DNA of 48,113 nucleotides, from assembly GCA_003223245.1 (NCBI GenBank), contig QHYI01000128.1:1-48113 (forward strand). Direction: 5' to 3'. The position numbers and the translations under genes were made by a program. Shown piece after piece: positions 3,055-48,113 of the stretch. The stretch's first letter is position 1; each line of letters begins with the position of its first letter. Below the pieces are notes generated by a model. It saw only the letters and a list, made by a program, of their open reading frames with translations, did no database searches and was not told the origin of the DNA. This stretch comes from Acidobacteriota bacterium. Lineage in GTDB: Bacteria; Acidobacteriota; Terriglobia; Acidiferrales; UBA7541.

Positions 3055-3441
3055 TCACTTCGCCTGTGCCGCTTTCGGCCGCTTCGCGCCGTACTTCGAC
3101 CGGCCTTGCTTGCGATTCTCGACGCCCGCAGCGTCGAGCGTACCGCGCACGATGTGGTAGCGCACACCCGGCAAATCCTTCACACGGCCGCCGCGCACCA
3201 GCACAATCGAGTGTTCCTGCAAGTTGTGCCCGATGCCCGGAATATATGTCGTCACTTCCACCGCGTTCGTCAAGCGCACACGCGCCACTTTGCGCAGTGC
3301 GGAGTTTGGTTTCTTCGGTGTTTGGGTGTACACGCGGATGCACACGCCGCGCTTCTCCGGGCAGCCCGCCAACGCGGGCGACTTCGTCTTGCTGATGACC
3401 GCTTCGCGGCCCATGCGTACCAGTTGCGAAAACGTCGGCAC
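3055..3441 (-). CDS. rpsL: 30S ribosomal protein S12
   Basis: S12 forms part of the decoding centre and controls translational accuracy. The 128-residue product has the hallmark [11 protein letters not shown] loop and the [13 protein letters not shown] loop. Lys43 and Lys88, the two positions where streptomycin-resistance changes occur, are both the wild-type lysine, so nothing suggests a resistance allele. It is the first gene of the str operon. A consensus promoter lies about 360 nt upstream (3802-3830), giving a long untranslated leader. Confidence 0.97.
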
Positions 3442-3954: not shown

Positions 3955-5358
3955 CTATTTTATTTGGGGAGGCCGGGCCATGGCGTGCCGCGGGATTGCC
4001 AGTCTCCCTCCCTGAACCACGGTGTACCCGTCGCGGACCACCAGATCCACCTTGACCAAATCGTCCAAATTCTCGTCCGGCCGGCCGTCCACCACCAGCA
4101 CATCGGCGAGCTTTCCAGGCTCGAGCGTTCCCAAACGATCATCCATATCCAGTATCTCGGAATTTGTCTTGGTCGCCGCCACCAGCCCCTCGGGGACGGT
4201 CCATCCGGCCGCCACGAAATTCTTGAGCTCCCGAAGGTACGGTCCGGGCAGGTAGCGATACCAGTGAAGGATCAAGTCCGTCCCCACACCGCATTTGATT
4301 CCTGCTCTTTTCAATTTCCTCAGCATCTCCATGTTGGCTTCATTCGAAAATGTAAAGCGCCGCGAGGTCGAGCCAAAGTATCCGCCCCACTCTTCAAAAA
4401 TAATTTGATACGGAATCAGCGTCGGGTCGGCAGCCACGCCTTTCTTCGCCATCAGCTCTATTGTTTCGTCCGTTCTCGGCAAGGGATGCTCGATGGTGTC
4501 CGCTCCGGCCTCCACCGCACGCTGGATGTAAAACGTTTCCGAATCCACGGTCACCTTCAATCCGAGTTCGTGCGCTTCCTGCACCGCCGCTTTGACTTCT
4601 TCGACAGAGAAATGACTTCCCAGCTTGATGACGTCCGCGCCTTTGTGGAATTGTTCGCGCACCGCCTGCCGCCAATCGTCCGGTCCGGAAGCGATCCGCG
4701 TCGCGCCCATCCATTTGATCCATTCATCGGGAGTGTTTTCCGTCGAGTGCCCCCCTTCGCCGGTGATGAATTGTCCCGCCGGAAAAACTCGCGGACCGGC
4801 GAGACGATTTTCGCGCACCCACTCTTTCAATCGAAAAGTCACGTCGCCTTGGGAACCCACGTCGCGCACGCTGGTGATGCCGCTCTCTATGAAGTAGCGG
4901 AGCTTTTCCACCGCACGCAGCGTCGCGTCAGCTTCACTCGGTTCATGCAGCACATCGCCTTCCGTCAACGGATACGTTAAGTGCGTGTGCAAGTCGATGA
5001 GGCCCGGAAGAATTGTTTTGCCGGCGGCGTCTACGACTTCGGCGTTCTTCGGCCACTCCGTCGATGAGGCCGCGAGAACTTTCAAAATCTTGTTGCGCTC
5101 GATGACCAGCGTGCCTTCCTGCGCGGGTGCTCCTGTTCCGTCAAAAATTCTTCCGCCGCGCAAAACCAGAACGCGATCCGGCCCCATTGGTCCGGGCTTC
5201 ACTGGAATGCGCCGCGGGTCGTCGCTGACGGGCGTCGACGGGCTTAAGAATTTTCTTCGGTCCTGTGCCTTCTCCTGACCGGCCAGGCACATGCAGCAAC
5301 TCAACATCAGGATCGGCAACGCTGCGCTTTTCAGTTTCACGGTCACATTCCGGTTCAT
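3955..5358 (-). CDS. Secreted amidohydrolase-family protein
   Basis: 467 residues with an N-terminal export signal (residues 1-27, hydrophobic then CCMCLAGQ; possibly lipid-modified). It then has the amidohydrolase fold of the imidazolonepropionase/Xaa-Pro dipeptidase-like group. Metal-site residues visible: His124 and His126 in GLIDLHTH, Lys245 in ADVIKLGS, His291 in DTIEHP, and Asp361 in GVGTD. The position that usually carries the next metal-binding His (HAHG in relatives) reads VDSETF (272-274), so one ligand appears substituted. Substrate cannot be assigned; peptidase or amidase activity on a cyclic or blocked amide is the family expectation. It stands alone, divergent from the LysM gene. 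Confidence 0.85.
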   Translation of the reverse strand: MNRNVTVKLKSAALPILMLSCCMCLAGQEKAQDRRKFLSPSTPVSDDPRRIPVKPGPMGPDRVLVLRGGRIFDGTGAPAQEGTLVIERNKILKVLAASSTEWPKNAEVVDAAGKTILPGLIDLHTHLTYPLTEGDVLHEPSEADATLRAVEKLRYFIESGITSVRDVGSQGDVTFRLKEWVRENRLAGPRVFPAGQFITGEGGHSTENTPDEWIKWMGATRIASGPDDWRQAVREQFHKGADVIKLGSHFSVEEVKAAVQEAHELGLKVTVDSETFYIQRAVEAGADTIEHPLPRTDETIELMAKKGVAADPTLIPYQIIFEEWGGYFGSTSRRFTFSNEANMEMLRKLKRAGIKCGVGTDLILHWYRYLPGPYLRELKNFVAAGWTVPEGLVAATKTNSEILDMDDRLGTLEPGKLADVLVVDGRPDENLDDLVKVDLVVRDGYTVVQGGRLAIPRHAMARPPQIK

Positions 5359-10688: not shown

Positions 10689-11963
10689 TTAAGGTGTGGC
10701 AGGCTTCGCTGGATGCATTTTCACCGGACCCAAATCCGGCAGAAACGCCGTCAGGATGCCAATCGCCGGCAGGTACGCGCAGACATGGTAGACAAAATCG
10801 ATGCTGGTCATATCGGCGAGCTTGCCGAGAATCGCTGCGCCGACTCCGCCCATTCCAAACGCGAAGCCAAAAAATAACCCCGACACCGCGCCGATTCTCC
10901 CCGGCATCAGCTCCTGCGCGTAAACCAGAATTGCGGAAAACGCGGACGCGAGAATCAGTCCGATGACCACGCTCAAAATGCTGGTCCACAAGAGATTTGA
11001 GTAAGGCAGAATCAACGTGAACGGCAGTACGCCAAGAATCGACCACCAGATGACCAGTTTGCGGCCCACGCGATCGCCCACCGGCCCGCCGATAAACGTT
11101 CCCGCCGCCACCGCCCCCAGAAACAGGAACAGATGCAACTGCGCGTTCTGGATCGTGAGCTGAAATTTGTTCATCAAGTAGAACGTGTAGTAGCTCATGA
11201 TGCTTGCGAGGTAGAAGAATTTGGAAAACATCAGTGCTACGAGAATCGCGAGGCTCCAGCCGATTTGCCGATTGGACAACGCCGCATGCGCATGCATCGG
11301 GCCCAGCGAAGCAAGATGCTCCGGATCGACAATCACGGGTCTAGTCTGAAGTCGCCTGTTCTTGCGGAACCACGCGCCGATGTTCACGAGCAGCACAATC
11401 GCCAGCAGCGCCAGGAATGAAAACCAGGCGATGTGCGCCTGTCCCTTGATAAAGATAAACGCCAGCAGCGGACCGATGGCCGAGCCCGCGTTTCCGCCCA
11501 CTTGAAACAGCGATTGCGCCATGCCGTGCTGCCCGCCGGAAGCCATGCGCGCCACGCGCGAAGACTCGGGATGGAATACCGCCGAGCCGATGCCCACAAA
11601 TGCAGCAGCGCCAAGAATCGTCAAATACGTGGGCGCCATGGCAAATGCCAGCAAGCCCACCATCGTGATGCCCATGCCCACCGCGAGCGAGTACGGCTGC
11701 GGCCGTCGATCCGTGTACAGACCAACCACCGGCTGCAGCAACGAGGCGGTCAGCTGCAACGTGAGCGCAATCCGCCCGACTTGCCCGTAATTCAGATGGA
11801 AGCTGGCTTTCAGCAATGGATAAATCGCGGGGATCAGTGATTGCACCGTGTCATTCAATAAGTGGCAAAAGCTGATGGAAAAAAGAATCGGAAAGACGGC
11901 TTTCGCTGCGGCTTCCGCTCGCGCCTCTGCTTGCACAGCGTCCAGATTGGTGCCGCTGGCCAT
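10689..11963 (-). CDS. fsr: MFS transporter, fosmidomycin-resistance (FSR) type
   Basis: 424-residue, 12-helix major facilitator. The FSR-family signature is clear: SISFCHLLNDTVQSLIPAIYP near the N-terminus, FHPESSRVARMASGG and QVGGNAGSAIGPLLAF in the N-half, and GGPVGDRVGRK in the loop at the start of the C-half. E. coli Fsr exports fosmidomycin; most homologues have unknown natural substrates, so a drug or metabolite efflux role is inference. It lies 51 nt after the class IV aminotransferase gene on the same strand, so they may be cotranscribed. Confidence 0.85.
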   Translation of the reverse strand: MASGTNLDAVQAEARAEAAAKAVFPILFSISFCHLLNDTVQSLIPAIYPLLKASFHLNYGQVGRIALTLQLTASLLQPVVGLYTDRRPQPYSLAVGMGITMVGLLAFAMAPTYLTILGAAAFVGIGSAVFHPESSRVARMASGGQHGMAQSLFQVGGNAGSAIGPLLAFIFIKGQAHIAWFSFLALLAIVLLVNIGAWFRKNRRLQTRPVIVDPEHLASLGPMHAHAALSNRQIGWSLAILVALMFSKFFYLASIMSYYTFYLMNKFQLTIQNAQLHLFLFLGAVAAGTFIGGPVGDRVGRKLVIWWSILGVLPFTLILPYSNLLWTSILSVVIGLILASAFSAILVYAQELMPGRIGAVSGLFFGFAFGMGGVGAAILGKLADMTSIDFVYHVCAYLPAIGILTAFLPDLGPVKMHPAKPATP

Positions 11964-14309: not shown

Positions 14310-15338
14310 TTATAGGTATGCTGCGAGCGCAGCGTCAATTCGGCTTTGCGGCTCGCCGGCAGCGACGCAAAGCTGCTTCAAGAAATCGCGGAGTTCCCCC
14401 GGCAAATGCGCACGAACTTCGGTCCACGCGCCGGTTCGCGGCTGGGGAAAGCCGATCCTCGCGGCGTGCAAAAAATTGCGCGGCAACTTGGGGAGTGTCT
14501 GGTTGCCGATTCGCAATTGCGCCGTTGCGCCGTAGAGCGTGTCGCCGACCACGGGATGCTTCAGCGCGGAGAAGTGCACGCGGATTTGATGGGTCCGCCC
14601 GGTATGGAGTTGGACTTCGACGAGCGTGGTGTTGGCGATGTGGGTGAGCGCGCGCCAGTCCGTGCGGGCTTCACGCGGATTGGCGATGGCCGCTCCGCGT
14701 CCCGATTTTCGAGGAGTGACCATGCGCGTGCGGTGGATGGGATCGCGCCCGATGGCCAGCACGATGCTGCCGGTCTTTTCTTTCAGAATGCCTTGCACTA
14801 GAGCGAGATAAGTTTTTTTCACGGCACGCTTCTGGAAGGCTTCTCCAAGCCTGGCGTGCGCGGGGTCGTTTTTGGCGACCAAGATCACGCCGGAAGTTTC
14901 TTTGTCGAGGCGGTGCACGATTCCCGGCCGGAGCGGATCGCCGCCTTTGGAAAGTTGTAGCCCGCGCCCAAGCAGCGCGTTCACCAGCGTGCCCGAGATG
15001 TTTCCAGCGCCGGCGTGGACGGTCATCCCCGCGGGCTTGTTAATGGCAATCACATCTTCATCTTCGTAAAGGACTTCGAGGGGGATGGCTTCGGGTTTCG
15101 CGAAGATGGCCGGGCGCTCGGAAATTTCGACGGTGATTTTTTCGCTGCCGCGAAGATGGAGCCCACCCTTTTTTGCCGCTTTGCCGCCCAGGAACACACG
15201 CCCAGAGTCAATCAACTCTTGCACGCGCGTGCGGCTTAGTTCGGGGCATTGCGCAGCAATAAAGCGGTCGAGACGCTTACCAGCGTCCGAGGAAGAGGCA
15301 ACGAGTTCACGATGGACGACGGACGAAAGGAGAGGCAC
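14310..15338 (-). CDS. rluD: RluA-family 23S rRNA pseudouridine synthase (RluD-like)
   Basis: 342 residues: N-terminal S4 RNA-binding domain (about 20-80, GKRLDRFIA..SRTRVQELIDSGRVFLGG) followed by the RluA catalytic domain. The catalytic Asp is Asp145 in VHRLDKETSG, and the LHTGRTHQIRVH motif is present. RluD of E. coli makes pseudouridines 1911, 1915 and 1917 in helix 69 of 23S rRNA; the S4 plus catalytic arrangement fits, but RluC cannot be excluded. The start is a GTG at 15338. A TATAAT lies exactly 7 nt upstream (15346-15351), so the mRNA may be leaderless. Confidence 0.88.
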   Translation of the reverse strand: MPLLSSVVHRELVASSSDAGKRLDRFIAAQCPELSRTRVQELIDSGRVFLGGKAAKKGGLHLRGSEKITVEISERPAIFAKPEAIPLEVLYEDEDVIAINKPAGMTVHAGAGNISGTLVNALLGRGLQLSKGGDPLRPGIVHRLDKETSGVILVAKNDPAHARLGEAFQKRAVKKTYLALVQGILKEKTGSIVLAIGRDPIHRTRMVTPRKSGRGAAIANPREARTDWRALTHIANTTLVEVQLHTGRTHQIRVHFSALKHPVVGDTLYGATAQLRIGNQTLPKLPRNFLHAARIGFPQPRTGAWTEVRAHLPGELRDFLKQLCVAAGEPQSRIDAALAAYL

Positions 15339-17989: not shown

Positions 17990-18655
17990 TCAGACCACAA
18001 CGCAGCACGGGTTGCCCTTCATCGCCTCCCATCCTTCATGCACAATCAAGGGCAACAGAGACAGCGCGGTGACCGGGTCGGCGCAACCTACCTTCCAAAT
18101 CGCATTGACGGCAAGGCCGGCCAGAGCAATCAAGGCCAGATAACCGCAGACCGCAGATTCGGCAGCGTCGGCCCTCAATGCTGCGCTGTTGGTGGTCACC
18201 GAGAGCCGCCGTTTTTGTCTTGCGAGCCAAGGCATGACCACGGCGGCGAGAATCAGCAGGGCTATCCCAACAGCACTGCACCGGGGTTCGATGTGCCCGA
18301 GCAGGGACAGGACCGAAGCTAAAACCACAAATACCGCGAGGACGAAGAGCAAAGCTGCTGCGATTTTAGCTGCTCGTTCCTCAGCGTGCACGTCGTGAGA
18401 TGTAACGCGGAAACGGCGGAGCACCACTACCGCCGAGATCAGTTCGACTGCGCTGTCGCCTCCGAAACCGAGTAGAGCCGCACTGCGAGCCGTCCATGCA
18501 GCAGCCAACGACACCGCCGCCTCTACAGTCATCCAGACGAGCGTGAACGCCTGAATCCGAATCACACGGCCTGCGGTTTCTGCCGACAGAGAAGTGGCCA
18601 CGGGCATGCTATCCGTCTTTGGTGGTGTGGTTGCCATCAAATCGCTCGAGCGCAT
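17990..18655 (-). CDS. CDF-like cation transporter, membrane domain only
   Basis: 221 residues with about six hydrophobic helices. TM2 carries GFGGDSAVELIS and TM5 carries RADAAESAVCGYLAL, the two places where cation diffusion facilitators hold their metal-site Asp residues; here each site reads D...E where most family members have D...D or H...D. The usual C-terminal cytoplasmic dimerisation domain is absent; the chain ends soon after the last helix (GNPCCVVV). A metal or other cation is the likely substrate. Two starts are possible, 18655 and 18637, and neither has a clear Shine-Dalgarno. It overlaps the preceding gene by 47 nt, which suggests translational coupling. Confidence 0.7.
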   Translation of the reverse strand: MRSSDLMATTPPKTDSMPVATSLSAETAGRVIRIQAFTLVWMTVEAAVSLAAAWTARSAALLGFGGDSAVELISAVVVLRRFRVTSHDVHAEERAAKIAAALLFVLAVFVVLASVLSLLGHIEPRCSAVGIALLILAAVVMPWLARQKRRLSVTTNSAALRADAAESAVCGYLALIALAGLAVNAIWKVGCADPVTALSLLPLIVHEGWEAMKGNPCCVVV

Positions 18656-19181: not shown

Positions 19182-19335
19182 GTTCGACCGCTTATTTTTA
19201 CATTTAGCAGCTACATCTAGTCGGCCTTCTTGCCTCTACAGGGAGAAGCGGGTTCTTTACGATCCGACTGTAATGGCTGTGGTAATCTAAATATCTGGTG
19301 ACTAGCGATTCCAGCCCGGGAAGGCGATACCGATC

Positions 19336-46643: not shown

Positions 46644-46730
46644 TGGTGCCCGAGAGAGGACTCGAACCTCCACGACCTTGCGATCACTAGCTCCTGAAGC
46701 TAGCGCGTCTGCCAGTTCCGCCACTCGGGC
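46644..46730 (-). tRNA. tRNA-Leu (CAG)
   Basis: 87 nt on the minus strand: acceptor GCCCGAG/CTCGGGC, D arm with GTGGCGGAACTGGCAGAC, anticodon stem CTAGC/GCTAG with loop TTCAGGA (anticodon CAG), a long variable arm (TGATCGCAAGGTCGT) as expected for tRNA-Leu, T loop GGTTCGAGTCC, discriminator A and encoded CCA. A copy of its 5' half lies at 47930-47972. Confidence 0.96.
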
Positions 46731-46732
46731 AC
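46690..46732 (-). repeat. att-like repeat, copy in tRNA-Leu
   Basis: Covers the tRNA-Leu 5' half, from 2 nt upstream of the tRNA to the anticodon loop. It differs from 47930-47972 at one base (46701 T versus 47941 C), which falls in the anticodon stem. Confidence 0.8.
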
Positions 46733-46782
46733 TGAAGAATCTATGAGTTACAGACTTGGTGGGCTTTTGTCCCTTCCTGTGG

Positions 46783-47217
46783 CTAATTTGCGGAATTTTC
46801 TGGAGCCACATTCGCCGCCGCGTTCCTCCGGTTCTCCAGCTTCTCCGCCGCGTCCACTAAGTCCTCCTCGCTACCAATTATCGTAGCGGTCGAATACGGA
46901 ACGTGTAGCGTGACTGGAGATTTGTATAGCCGTCTTCTCAGAAACTCCTGCTGTAATCATATTACGAATTGCGGAACGACGGAAGTCGTGCAGCAGAATC
47001 GGGACCTTGGCAGCTTTGGTCATCTTTGACCAAGTGCCCCTGAAGTCCCTAACCGGACTACCATCCTCCCAAGTGAATAACGAATCGTCTGGCTTCTTAC
47101 CCCTCACACATGGTATCAAACGCTGAGCCGGCATCTCCAGCAACTTTCGAAGTTGTCCACAGTTCCCATACCAGTGTTCAGTTTTCGCCATCTTCACGCA
47201 TCTTTCTTGCAGCCAAA
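46783..47217 (-). pseudogene. Truncated, frameshifted tyrosine recombinase (integrase)
   Basis: The retained C-terminal catalytic part reads RKLLEMPAQRLIPC, KKPDDSLFTWEDGSPVRDF, then LHDFRRSAIRNMITAG (HxxR box) and SSHATRSVFDRYD (His and the catalytic Tyr). The first Arg and the whole N-terminal core-binding and arm-binding domains are missing. After RYD the frame hits TAG at 46871-46873; removing one A near 46881-46883 restores SEEDLVDAAEKLENRR, a normal integrase tail ending at 46783. Full-length relatives are about 350-400 residues, so about two thirds is lost and the enzyme must be inactive. Confidence 0.8.
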
Positions 47218-47347
47218 ATCTGTTCGCGGTATTTCTCCCGCACTTCGGCAATCACAGCAGAGAGTTCTTCGAACGATGGCATTTGCCCTGATTGAATCAG
47301 GCGTGTGCCTCCGCTTCCAACTCGGGTGGTGTGATTTTCTTTTTCAT
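47178..47347 (-). pseudogene. Frameshifted small gene next to the integrase
   Basis: ATG at 47347 gives MKKKITPPELEAEAHA and then TGA. One base is missing there; restoring the frame continues into RLIQSGQMPSFEELSAV and EVREKYREQILAARK to the TGA at 47178, about 57 residues, charged and helical. The 3' end overlaps the start of the integrase remnant. A short alternative ATG at 47282 gives a 34-residue ORF. No function is known; the position suggests an accessory gene of the element. Confidence 0.5.
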
Positions 47348-47362
47348 TGTCGCTCCATTTGG

Positions 47363-47638
47363 TTAATTCACTATTGGGACGTTGGCCGCAGCATCCACGG
47401 TTTGCTTTGCCCGAAGTTCACTCGGCTTGTCGAACACCTGGTCTTCGCCCAAAACTTCTCGCAAAGCAAAGACTGTGGGCGCAAATTGCTCGATGTAGCC
47501 ATACGGCCCGGCTAGCAACATCAGCAGGTTCAATAAGTGGAACACAGACAAATCGCTGAGCTGCTGGTCGGTGAAGTTCCAACTCCTGGTGAGACGTTCG
47601 ACAATTTCCTTGCGAACTGCGGTGCGATTGGTTTCCAT
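47363..47638 (-). CDS. Small hypothetical protein of the tRNA-Leu element
   Basis: 91 residues from the ATG at 47638, with AAAGGA upstream; a longer frame to 47704 is possible. The sequence is helical and reads as a genuine protein (METNRTAVRKEIVERLTRSW, then LSDLSVFHLLNLLMLLAGPYGYIEQF). It has a hydrophobic helix in the middle but no signal peptide. It ends 16 nt before the next small gene, which suggests that the two and the integrase formed one operon. No family is recognised. Confidence 0.55.
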   Translation of the reverse strand: METNRTAVRKEIVERLTRSWNFTDQQLSDLSVFHLLNLLMLLAGPYGYIEQFAPTVFALREVLGEDQVFDKPSELRAKQTVDAAANVPIVN

Positions 47639-47929
47639 GAGGTTTCCTTTCGGCGTATCTACCGGGTTTCGGTAATCGCACCGCTCTCCCCATTGCGGGG
47701 CCACGGTTGCGGCGTCCTTGTAGGACGGCTCTTGATACTGGAGCGATTATAACCTTTCGCGCTTTCGCTTCCAACGATTGCCTCGGTGTGAAACGGAATT
47801 CTGCCCCAATTCCTGTGACCAATTCGAGGCTAATTTGCTCAAAATTTGCGCCAAAGAGCACCAAGACTAAATCGTTGATTTTTCAGGGAATGTGTTGATG
47901 GCAAACAACTTGCAAGAATGCTAGGTTTT

Positions 47930-47972
47930 GCTCCTGAAGCCAGCGCGTCTGCCAGTTCCGCCACTCGGGCAC
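47930..47972 (-). repeat. att-like repeat, distal tRNA-Leu half
   Basis: 43-bp partial tRNA-Leu sequence lacking everything 3' of the anticodon loop, so it cannot be a functional tRNA. The flanking 47639-47929 and 47973-48113 show no gene. Confidence 0.8.
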
Positions 47973-48113
47973 GCGCGCTAGAAAGTTGCTTCCGAAAGGA
48001 GCCAACCACTTGCGAAGCATTTTCAATTCTTGCCCGCGGGGTTCTGCTTTGTCAACGCGAGCCGAATTGTCGGGCGCACGACATTAAAGTCAGGCCCGCA
48101 CCCGTCTGGCGTC

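Follow-up and report, generated by a model that had tools for sequence, protein, structure and literature searches.

Features of the tRNA-Leu(CAG) locus

The DNA analysed (hereafter the window) is the whole 48,113-nt contig QHYI01000128.1 of the Acidobacteriota bacterium assembly GCA_003223245.1 (genome G000 in our comparisons). An intact tRNA-Leu(CAG) gene was called by ARAGORN on the minus strand at 46644-46730, and part of it is found a second time further upstream: 46690-46732 and 47930-47972 form a 43-bp direct repeat, 42/43 identical, with a spacing of 1240 bp. The ARAGORN call places this repeat, therefore, at tRNA nt -2 to 41, so that the 43-bp, one-mismatch repeat within the tRNA 5' half that was described in the first-pass annotation was reproduced. 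The copy at 46690-46732 (minus strand) was supplied by the element, so that the intact gene consists of an element-derived 5' half and a chromosomal 3' half, while the copy at 47930-47972 (minus strand), beyond which the native upstream sequence continues, is the displaced original. The sole mismatch falls at nt 30, in the anticodon stem, where the gene has A and the displaced copy G; it is formally correct that the G could still pair as G-U, but this says nothing about a working tRNA, because the displaced copy belongs to no tRNA. The window tRNA gene itself is conserved, being matched with 100% identity over 86-91 bp at seven loci in six congeneric genomes.

The body of the element remnant (46733-47929, no strand assigned) is unmatched in the empty-site loci of genomes G018, G012 and G008, and all the element genes in it lie on the minus strand, oriented toward the tRNA. 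The first of these is what is left of a tyrosine integrase (46785-47116, minus strand, approximate limits), recognized from Pfam and from its relatives, with the tail traced by eye. Only the C-terminal part is present, aligning to residues 100-181 of a 229-aa relative; the frame is broken near the end, and the Pfam Phage_integrase score is 21.7 bits, under the cut-off of 27.1. The recombinase that the first-pass annotation called dying is thus present between the copies as a decayed C-terminal fragment only, and with a dead integrase the remnant has no means of being active. Integrases at the equivalent position are open in the relatives G024:C80, G031, G131 and G453.

Two small genes had also been proposed. 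One of them, a 91-aa ORF at 47363-47638 (minus strand), is indeed open, and is 81% identical to its counterpart in genome G030. The other, given as a 57-residue gene, is not open in the window, where homology reveals a frame-broken relative (47178-47347, minus strand, limits by eye) of a 56-aa ORF that is open in G030. For the 91-aa protein, neither Pfam nor PHROGs gave a match, a search of viral contigs gave no relative, and an AlphaFold model (two sequences) was of moderate quality (pLDDT 71.4) and helical. Overlapping its start codon, at 47630-47743 (minus strand), is an RNA resembling the SAM-I/IV riboswitch (RF01725), scoring 33.2 bits against the Rfam gathering cut-off of 41.1; similar RNAs in G030, where the 91-aa gene is also found, score 37.1 and 36.0, likewise below the cut-off. 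RNAs just below this cut-off thus occur at 47630-47743 (minus) in the window, and at 3186-3299 (plus) and 2876-2748 (minus) in locus L056; the window RNA and the one at 3186-3299 each precede homologous 91-aa genes. In addition, a C-terminal trace of the window's 91-aa gene lies downstream of a displaced half on G024:C33.

The conservation of the 91-aa gene together with its RNA in G030 could be read to mean that the window holds a functional minimal unit, with gene and riboswitch as cargo, rather than debris. This has a slim chance of being correct. The N-terminal part of the integrase is missing and the 57-aa gene has lost its open frame; the similarity between the window and G030 stops at about 47122, where the integrase fragment begins, which looks like an internal deletion; and relatives of the 91-aa protein occur in only 2 of 60 other genomes, with no tRNA gene found at the fetched locus of either. 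Moreover, no intact 1.24-kb unit was found at other tRNA genes in these 60 genomes. The first-pass description of a very small element of about three genes applies to the window remnant, but not to those relatives of which both ends lie on a single contig, which measure 3.4 to 44.6 kb.

Empty and occupied sites in related genomes

An empty site matching on both flanks was found in the congeneric genome G018. The sequence from 47973 onward in the window adjoins the tRNA 5' end in G018, in G012 (on two contigs) and in G008, and more weakly in G011; in G018 there is also a match to the gene on the opposite side. The single tRNA joined directly to the sequence after 47972, which the first-pass annotation had predicted for uninterrupted relatives, was therefore found, with both flanks in G018 and on the upstream side in G012 and G008. 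Furthermore, the same tRNA gene holds a different, 3.4-kb element in G024, inserted with the same geometry, where the displaced half (41 bp, 100% identical) is again followed by upstream sequence of the native type.

We considered whether the half copy could have arisen without integration, as a chance duplication or a pseudogene, for instance by template switching. The broken state of the integrase would fit, as would a half copy in G017 (nt 13-45, 91%) that lies about 0.2 kb before tRNA-Leu with no space for genes between. However, the empty site in G018 matches on both flanks, Leu and Asp tRNAs whose integrases are still in place show almost the same boundary, and three integrase-tRNA junctions have their displaced half further upstream on that contig and strand, at 8.7, 15.1 and 44.6 kb. 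The empty sites and the same arrangement at other tRNA genes therefore rule out chance, and we regard the whole alternative as very improbable. The G017 half copy is a mild form of a partial repeat lacking the intervening genes, one of two findings that the first-pass annotation had held to speak against an integrated element. The other, the genes lacking a tRNA repeat, occurs in a similarly mild form in G030, whose 91/57-aa pair comes with no integrase match and is preceded only by a 12-bp trace of a tRNA-Leu half. Both are read as further stages of decay.

As a separate observation, locus L076 of G018 contains two 5'-half copies on the plus strand (19277-19330, 89%, and 18097-18134, 82%), which are inverted with respect to, and on the far side of, a tRNA-Leu(CAA) gene at 19603-19517 (minus).

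Related integrases at tRNA 5' halves

Intact related integrases at tRNA 5' halves, for which the first-pass annotation had recommended a search, do exist. Nine related integrases were found just upstream of a tRNA gene (Leu, Asp or Sec) for which a matching displaced half could be identified; all the genomes compared are drafts, and the half is on the same contig in four of the nine (L084, L087, L105, L163), and was paired by sequence with a half on another contig in the remaining five (L059, L082, L100, L065, L168). Displaced halves were not found by genome search for L123 and L085, nor in the fetched loci of L090, L110, L122 and L159.

The source genome contains a second such element, at tRNA-Leu(UAG) on contig C74, where the tRNA gene begins 7 nt after the integrase stop; contig C80 holds a matching displaced half (nt 1-39, 100%). 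At the tRNA-Leu(UAG) of G024, a 5'-type integrase is likewise present, and its half lies on another contig, preceded by a second integrase end. On G024:C33 (L057, 9211-9536), the C-terminus of an integrase directly precedes a 5' half, which suggests a tandem of two 5'-type elements. The tRNA-Asp of G031 follows a 5'-type integrase and has a displaced half 8.7 kb away in addition to an older copy. At tRNA-Leu(CAA), 5'-type integrases have their halves 44.6 kb off in G453, 15.1 kb off in G131 and on another contig in G452. The displaced half of tRNA-Leu(UAG) in G045 (other contig, 98%) ends at nt 37, and that of the selenocysteine tRNA in G138 (other contig, 100%) covers nt 1-42. A 5.8-kb interval was also present at tRNA-Leu(UAG) in G017, and no integrase match was found inside it.

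Of 15 5'-type rows, 13 have the integrase stop 7-30 nt before the tRNA and one has it 66 nt before; in the remaining row, L065, the integrase ORF, whose N-terminus looks decayed, runs through the tRNA. Whole integrase ORFs adjoin the tRNA in L067, L070, L173 and L174. Concerning cargo, ten ORFs were searched in each of two elements: the 15.1-kb element of G131 encodes an integrase, a primase-like ATPase, a large terminase and a head protease, a gene set that resembles those of phage satellites, and the 44.6-kb element of G453 encodes, besides its integrase, a type I restriction system, protein kinases and a Mom-family protein.

Some of the rebuilt tRNAs appear to be the only ones of their kind. 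The tRNA-Leu(UAG) on C74 is the only such gene found in the source genome, and in G031 no other full-length gene nearly identical to its tRNA-Asp was found. Asp codons and CUA need these tRNAs.

The repeat boundary and the probable crossover

Of ten pairs of tRNA and displaced half, six are identical from nt 1 up to nt 39 exactly, and one up to nt 40. As for the remaining pairs, that of G017 differs at nt 1 and matches to nt 39, that of the window differs at nt 30 and then matches to nt 41, and the older copy of G031 is degraded. The anticodon occupies nt 35-37, and nt 39 is the final base of the anticodon loop. In five relatives of opposite geometry, the repeats begin at nt 29-33 and extend through the tRNA 3' end. 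Because the 5'-type and the 3'-type repeats overlap in the anticodon loop, the loop would be the crossover region shared by both; judging from where the repeats end in the relatives, the exact crossover is probably within nt 33-39, which in the window correspond to 46692-46698 (minus strand).

These data lead us to interpret the locus as what is left of an integrative element that entered tRNA-Leu(CAG) when its tyrosine integrase recombined the 7 bp of the anticodon loop, a reading to which we assign a probability of about 0.93. The empty sites, the other occupant in G024 and the geometry of the relatives all support the main first-pass claim, an element remnant with the tRNA 5' half in its attachment site. 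The element's attP would have contained a copy of the tRNA 5' half beside the 3' end of the integrase gene; integration would therefore have rebuilt an intact tRNA by joining the 5' half of the element to the 3' half of the chromosome, and would have left the original 5' half and the native TTGACA promoter beyond the opposite end of the element.

Promoters and possible transcription of the rebuilt tRNA

Two promoter-like sites were found at the locus, against a mean of 0.7 (sd 1.0) in shuffled sequences. One of them (TTGACA-18-AAGAAT, 48026-48055, minus strand) is upstream of the displaced half, has similar counterparts in the empty sites and would be the native tRNA promoter; the other (TTGGAA-17-TATAAT, 47746-47774, minus strand) directly precedes the riboswitch-like RNA and the 91-aa gene. 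Scored with a position weight matrix of promoter hexamer frequencies, five of six empty tRNA-Leu(CAG) loci have a promoter-like TTGACA-17-CANAAT site that ends 52-60 nt upstream of the tRNA (at most 2 of 200 shuffles scoring as well), and the sixth has no such signal (16 of 200). Upstream of the displaced halves of the window and of G024, the native promoter signal is retained (1 of 200 shuffles each), whereas the 17 element-side regions all stayed short of the level of 10 of 200 shuffles. At other tRNAs, seven more halves, displaced or tandem, scored no better than the element sides (16-114 of 200), so the promoter contrast concerns tRNA-Leu(CAG) only. At L100 (G452), the element carries an upstream region resembling the native one (52/60 identical, 0 of 500 shuffles).

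The first-pass annotation had supposed that the element brought in the promoter region of the tRNA. This is not supported in the window, where none could be recognized on the element side and the native TTGACA promoter is still next to the displaced half. Between the two promoters and the tRNA, a search of the same strand gave no terminator-like site. The rebuilt tRNA may be transcribed by read-through, which in intact relatives would come from the integrase transcript; for the window, the TATAAT promoter at 47746, the native promoter at 48026 or both would be the source.

Polarity across the integrase family

Contigs were scanned with an alignment of the integrases, retaining the best 80 of 498 confirmed stretches, and a phylum search of 396 genomes added nine further loci, for a total of 89. 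Among these (80 being the best of 498, in a sample biased toward relatives of a 5'-type query), a tRNA lies close to the integrase stop at 63 loci, of which 13 show the 5' geometry and 50 the 3' geometry. Three rows were added by hand (L059 and L065, 5' type; L066, 3' type), giving a tree of 66 rows. Before the trees were built, L166 was dropped because its coordinates overlap the L091 record, L162 as a presumed duplicate (it belongs to the uncounted 'tRNA upstream' group) and L156 as ambiguous, and L098, L121, L143 and L169 were excluded, their tRNA being 189-979 nt away.

In the 66-row tree the polarity label changes six times, at least five of the changes being forced by well-supported branches, and a single change suffices in 0% of 200 bootstrap trees. 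Four changes are found when the nine 5'-type rows with a displaced half are set against all 51 3'-type rows, and two with the repeat-verified rows alone (nine 5'-type, five 3'-type); these comparisons count changes without direction.

The predominance of 3'-half insertion, which accounts for 50 of the 63 tRNA-adjacent loci surveyed, and the tRNA-Asp fragments of both kinds in G000 and G024 could be taken to suggest that the window holds a classical 3'-half element, rearranged or inverted, whose 5'-half geometry is secondary. Such an element would, however, have left 3'-half repeats, whereas the identity blocks of the 5' type span nt 1-39 only and lie beside the integrase. This origin seems to us just as improbable as a duplication without integration; both are rejected, together with the functional minimal unit discussed above, and integration by way of the 5' half is retained.

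A doubled motif, often GGGCACA at a spacing of 10-12, was detected at the 5% level in the integrase 3' end in 13 of 17 5'-type and 26 of 45 3'-type cases, and in 0 of 7 native tRNA upstream regions used as controls; the window remnant has no significant motif of this kind (132 of 300 shuffles). A comparable doubled motif has been described in the attP of helper-embedded satellites (PMC10111431), and the motifs found here are candidate arm-type sites of the integrase. The two geometries differ in how far the motif lies from the anticodon centre (median 113 vs 133 bp, p = 0.001) but not in how far it lies from the tRNA edge (77 vs 84, p = 0.23), which argues against a fixed arm-to-crossover spacing.

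Discussion

Integration into the 5' half of a tRNA gene is not new, because it is already shown by islands in the Islander database and by archaeal pTN3-like elements. Islander lists 159 of 3,919 islands with 5' fragments and 3,760 with 3' fragments (PMC4383910), and archaeal pTN3-like integrases are stated to use the tRNA 5' half, the tRNA being expressed from the integrase promoter, a situation said in the archaeal review to be seldom met in bacteria (PMC5495485, PMC8371274). The geometry called unusual in the first-pass annotation is thus rare, but already described.

The 5' islands of Islander share with the present case a tRNA gene, an upstream 5' fragment and a tyrosine integrase, and anticodon-centred crossovers were recognized for them (PMC4383910). 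As in that class of 5' tDNA fragments, the fragment in the window lies upstream of the intact tRNA and both have the same orientation. In contrast, the window unit, 1.24 kb from start to start, is below the 2-200 kb filter of Islander, which is a filter of the database and not a biological trait, and its integrase is dead; the available text of PMC4383910 contains no analysis of lineage or polarity for the 5' class. With pTN3 there are in common the 5' half of tRNA-Leu, including the anticodon, as attB, a 41-bp shared segment in which the anticodon is included, and the parting of the tRNA from its own promoter (PMC5495485, PMC8371274). However, pTN3 is archaeal and its integration disrupts the integrase gene, whereas the relatives described here are in bacterial hosts and have whole ORFs next to the tRNA, as in L067, L070, L173 and L174. 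Myxococcus phage Mx8 also has its attP within the 3' part of the integrase gene (PMC4383910, PMC4701971), but it exchanges the integrase C-terminus on integration, and here only the L065 ORF crosses the tRNA. Phages with tRNA-dependent lysogeny (PMC10865867) similarly make host tRNA function dependent on the element after integration; they bring a whole tRNA gene, while here a half tRNA is rebuilt in place.

A further comparison is provided by the 3'-half members of the family itself (L097, L120, L146, L154, L161). These share the integrase family, the anticodon-loop core and a tRNA 14-27 nt from the integrase stop, and three of the five have the doubled motif at the 5% level, but they supply the opposite tRNA half and their integrase faces the tRNA 3' end. 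It is conceivable, at slightly less than even odds in our judgement, that one integrase family reversed its polarity at tRNA genes several times, with the anticodon-loop crossover and the type of doubled arm site in its 3' end unchanged and the tRNA half carried in attP swapped. The host tRNA would thereby become the last gene of the integrase transcript, host translation would depend on transcription of the element, and the native promoter would be aimed into the element. The rebuilt tRNA is sometimes the only one found for its codon, as for tRNA-Asp in G031 and tRNA-Leu(UAG) in G000.

In the usual account of integration into tRNA genes, the element restores the 3' end and the host promoter stays put. 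In the 5' geometry, the tRNA gene immediately follows the integrase gene and is parted from the promoter that was its own; this raises the question of how a needed tRNA is transcribed when the integrase gene ends 7-30 nt before it. Since both arrangements occur in one family, with the crossover and the arm-type motif in common, flips of polarity can be studied with close relatives as controls. What is new is the occurrence in this Acidobacteriota lineage, the apparent repeated reversal and the tRNA genes 7-30 nt behind the integrase. In the titles and abstract openings of papers retrieved on this geometry and on Acidobacteria islands, repeated polarity reversal within one bacterial integrase family, with crossover and arm-type motif kept, was not found described; Williams 2002 and Magrini 1999 may contain part of it. 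What the window holds is unremarkable debris left by a rare mode of integration, and the interest lies in the family behind it.

Some further arrangements were noted among the loci surveyed. Partial matches to tRNA-Asp, comprising both 5' halves and 3' halves, are scattered over contigs C88, C219, C66 and C166 of G000 and C52, C142, C112, C152, C28 and C154 of G024, as if the tRNA-Asp gene of these genomes had been entered from both sides. At L100, the tRNA-Leu(CAA) gene (11165-11254) has a 5'-type integrase on one side and a 31-bp 3'-end fragment (14903-14933, 94%) 3.6 kb beyond the other side. A short contig of the source genome (L042, G000:C18) contains a tRNA-Asn-like 3' half (about 2915-2987, by eye) and a tRNA-Leu 5' half (4008-4036), about 1 kb apart, with no full tRNA. 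Finally, a third arrangement is seen in L083, L086 and L162, where a tRNA-Leu(CAA) lies about 630-730 nt upstream of the integrase match, on the same strand.
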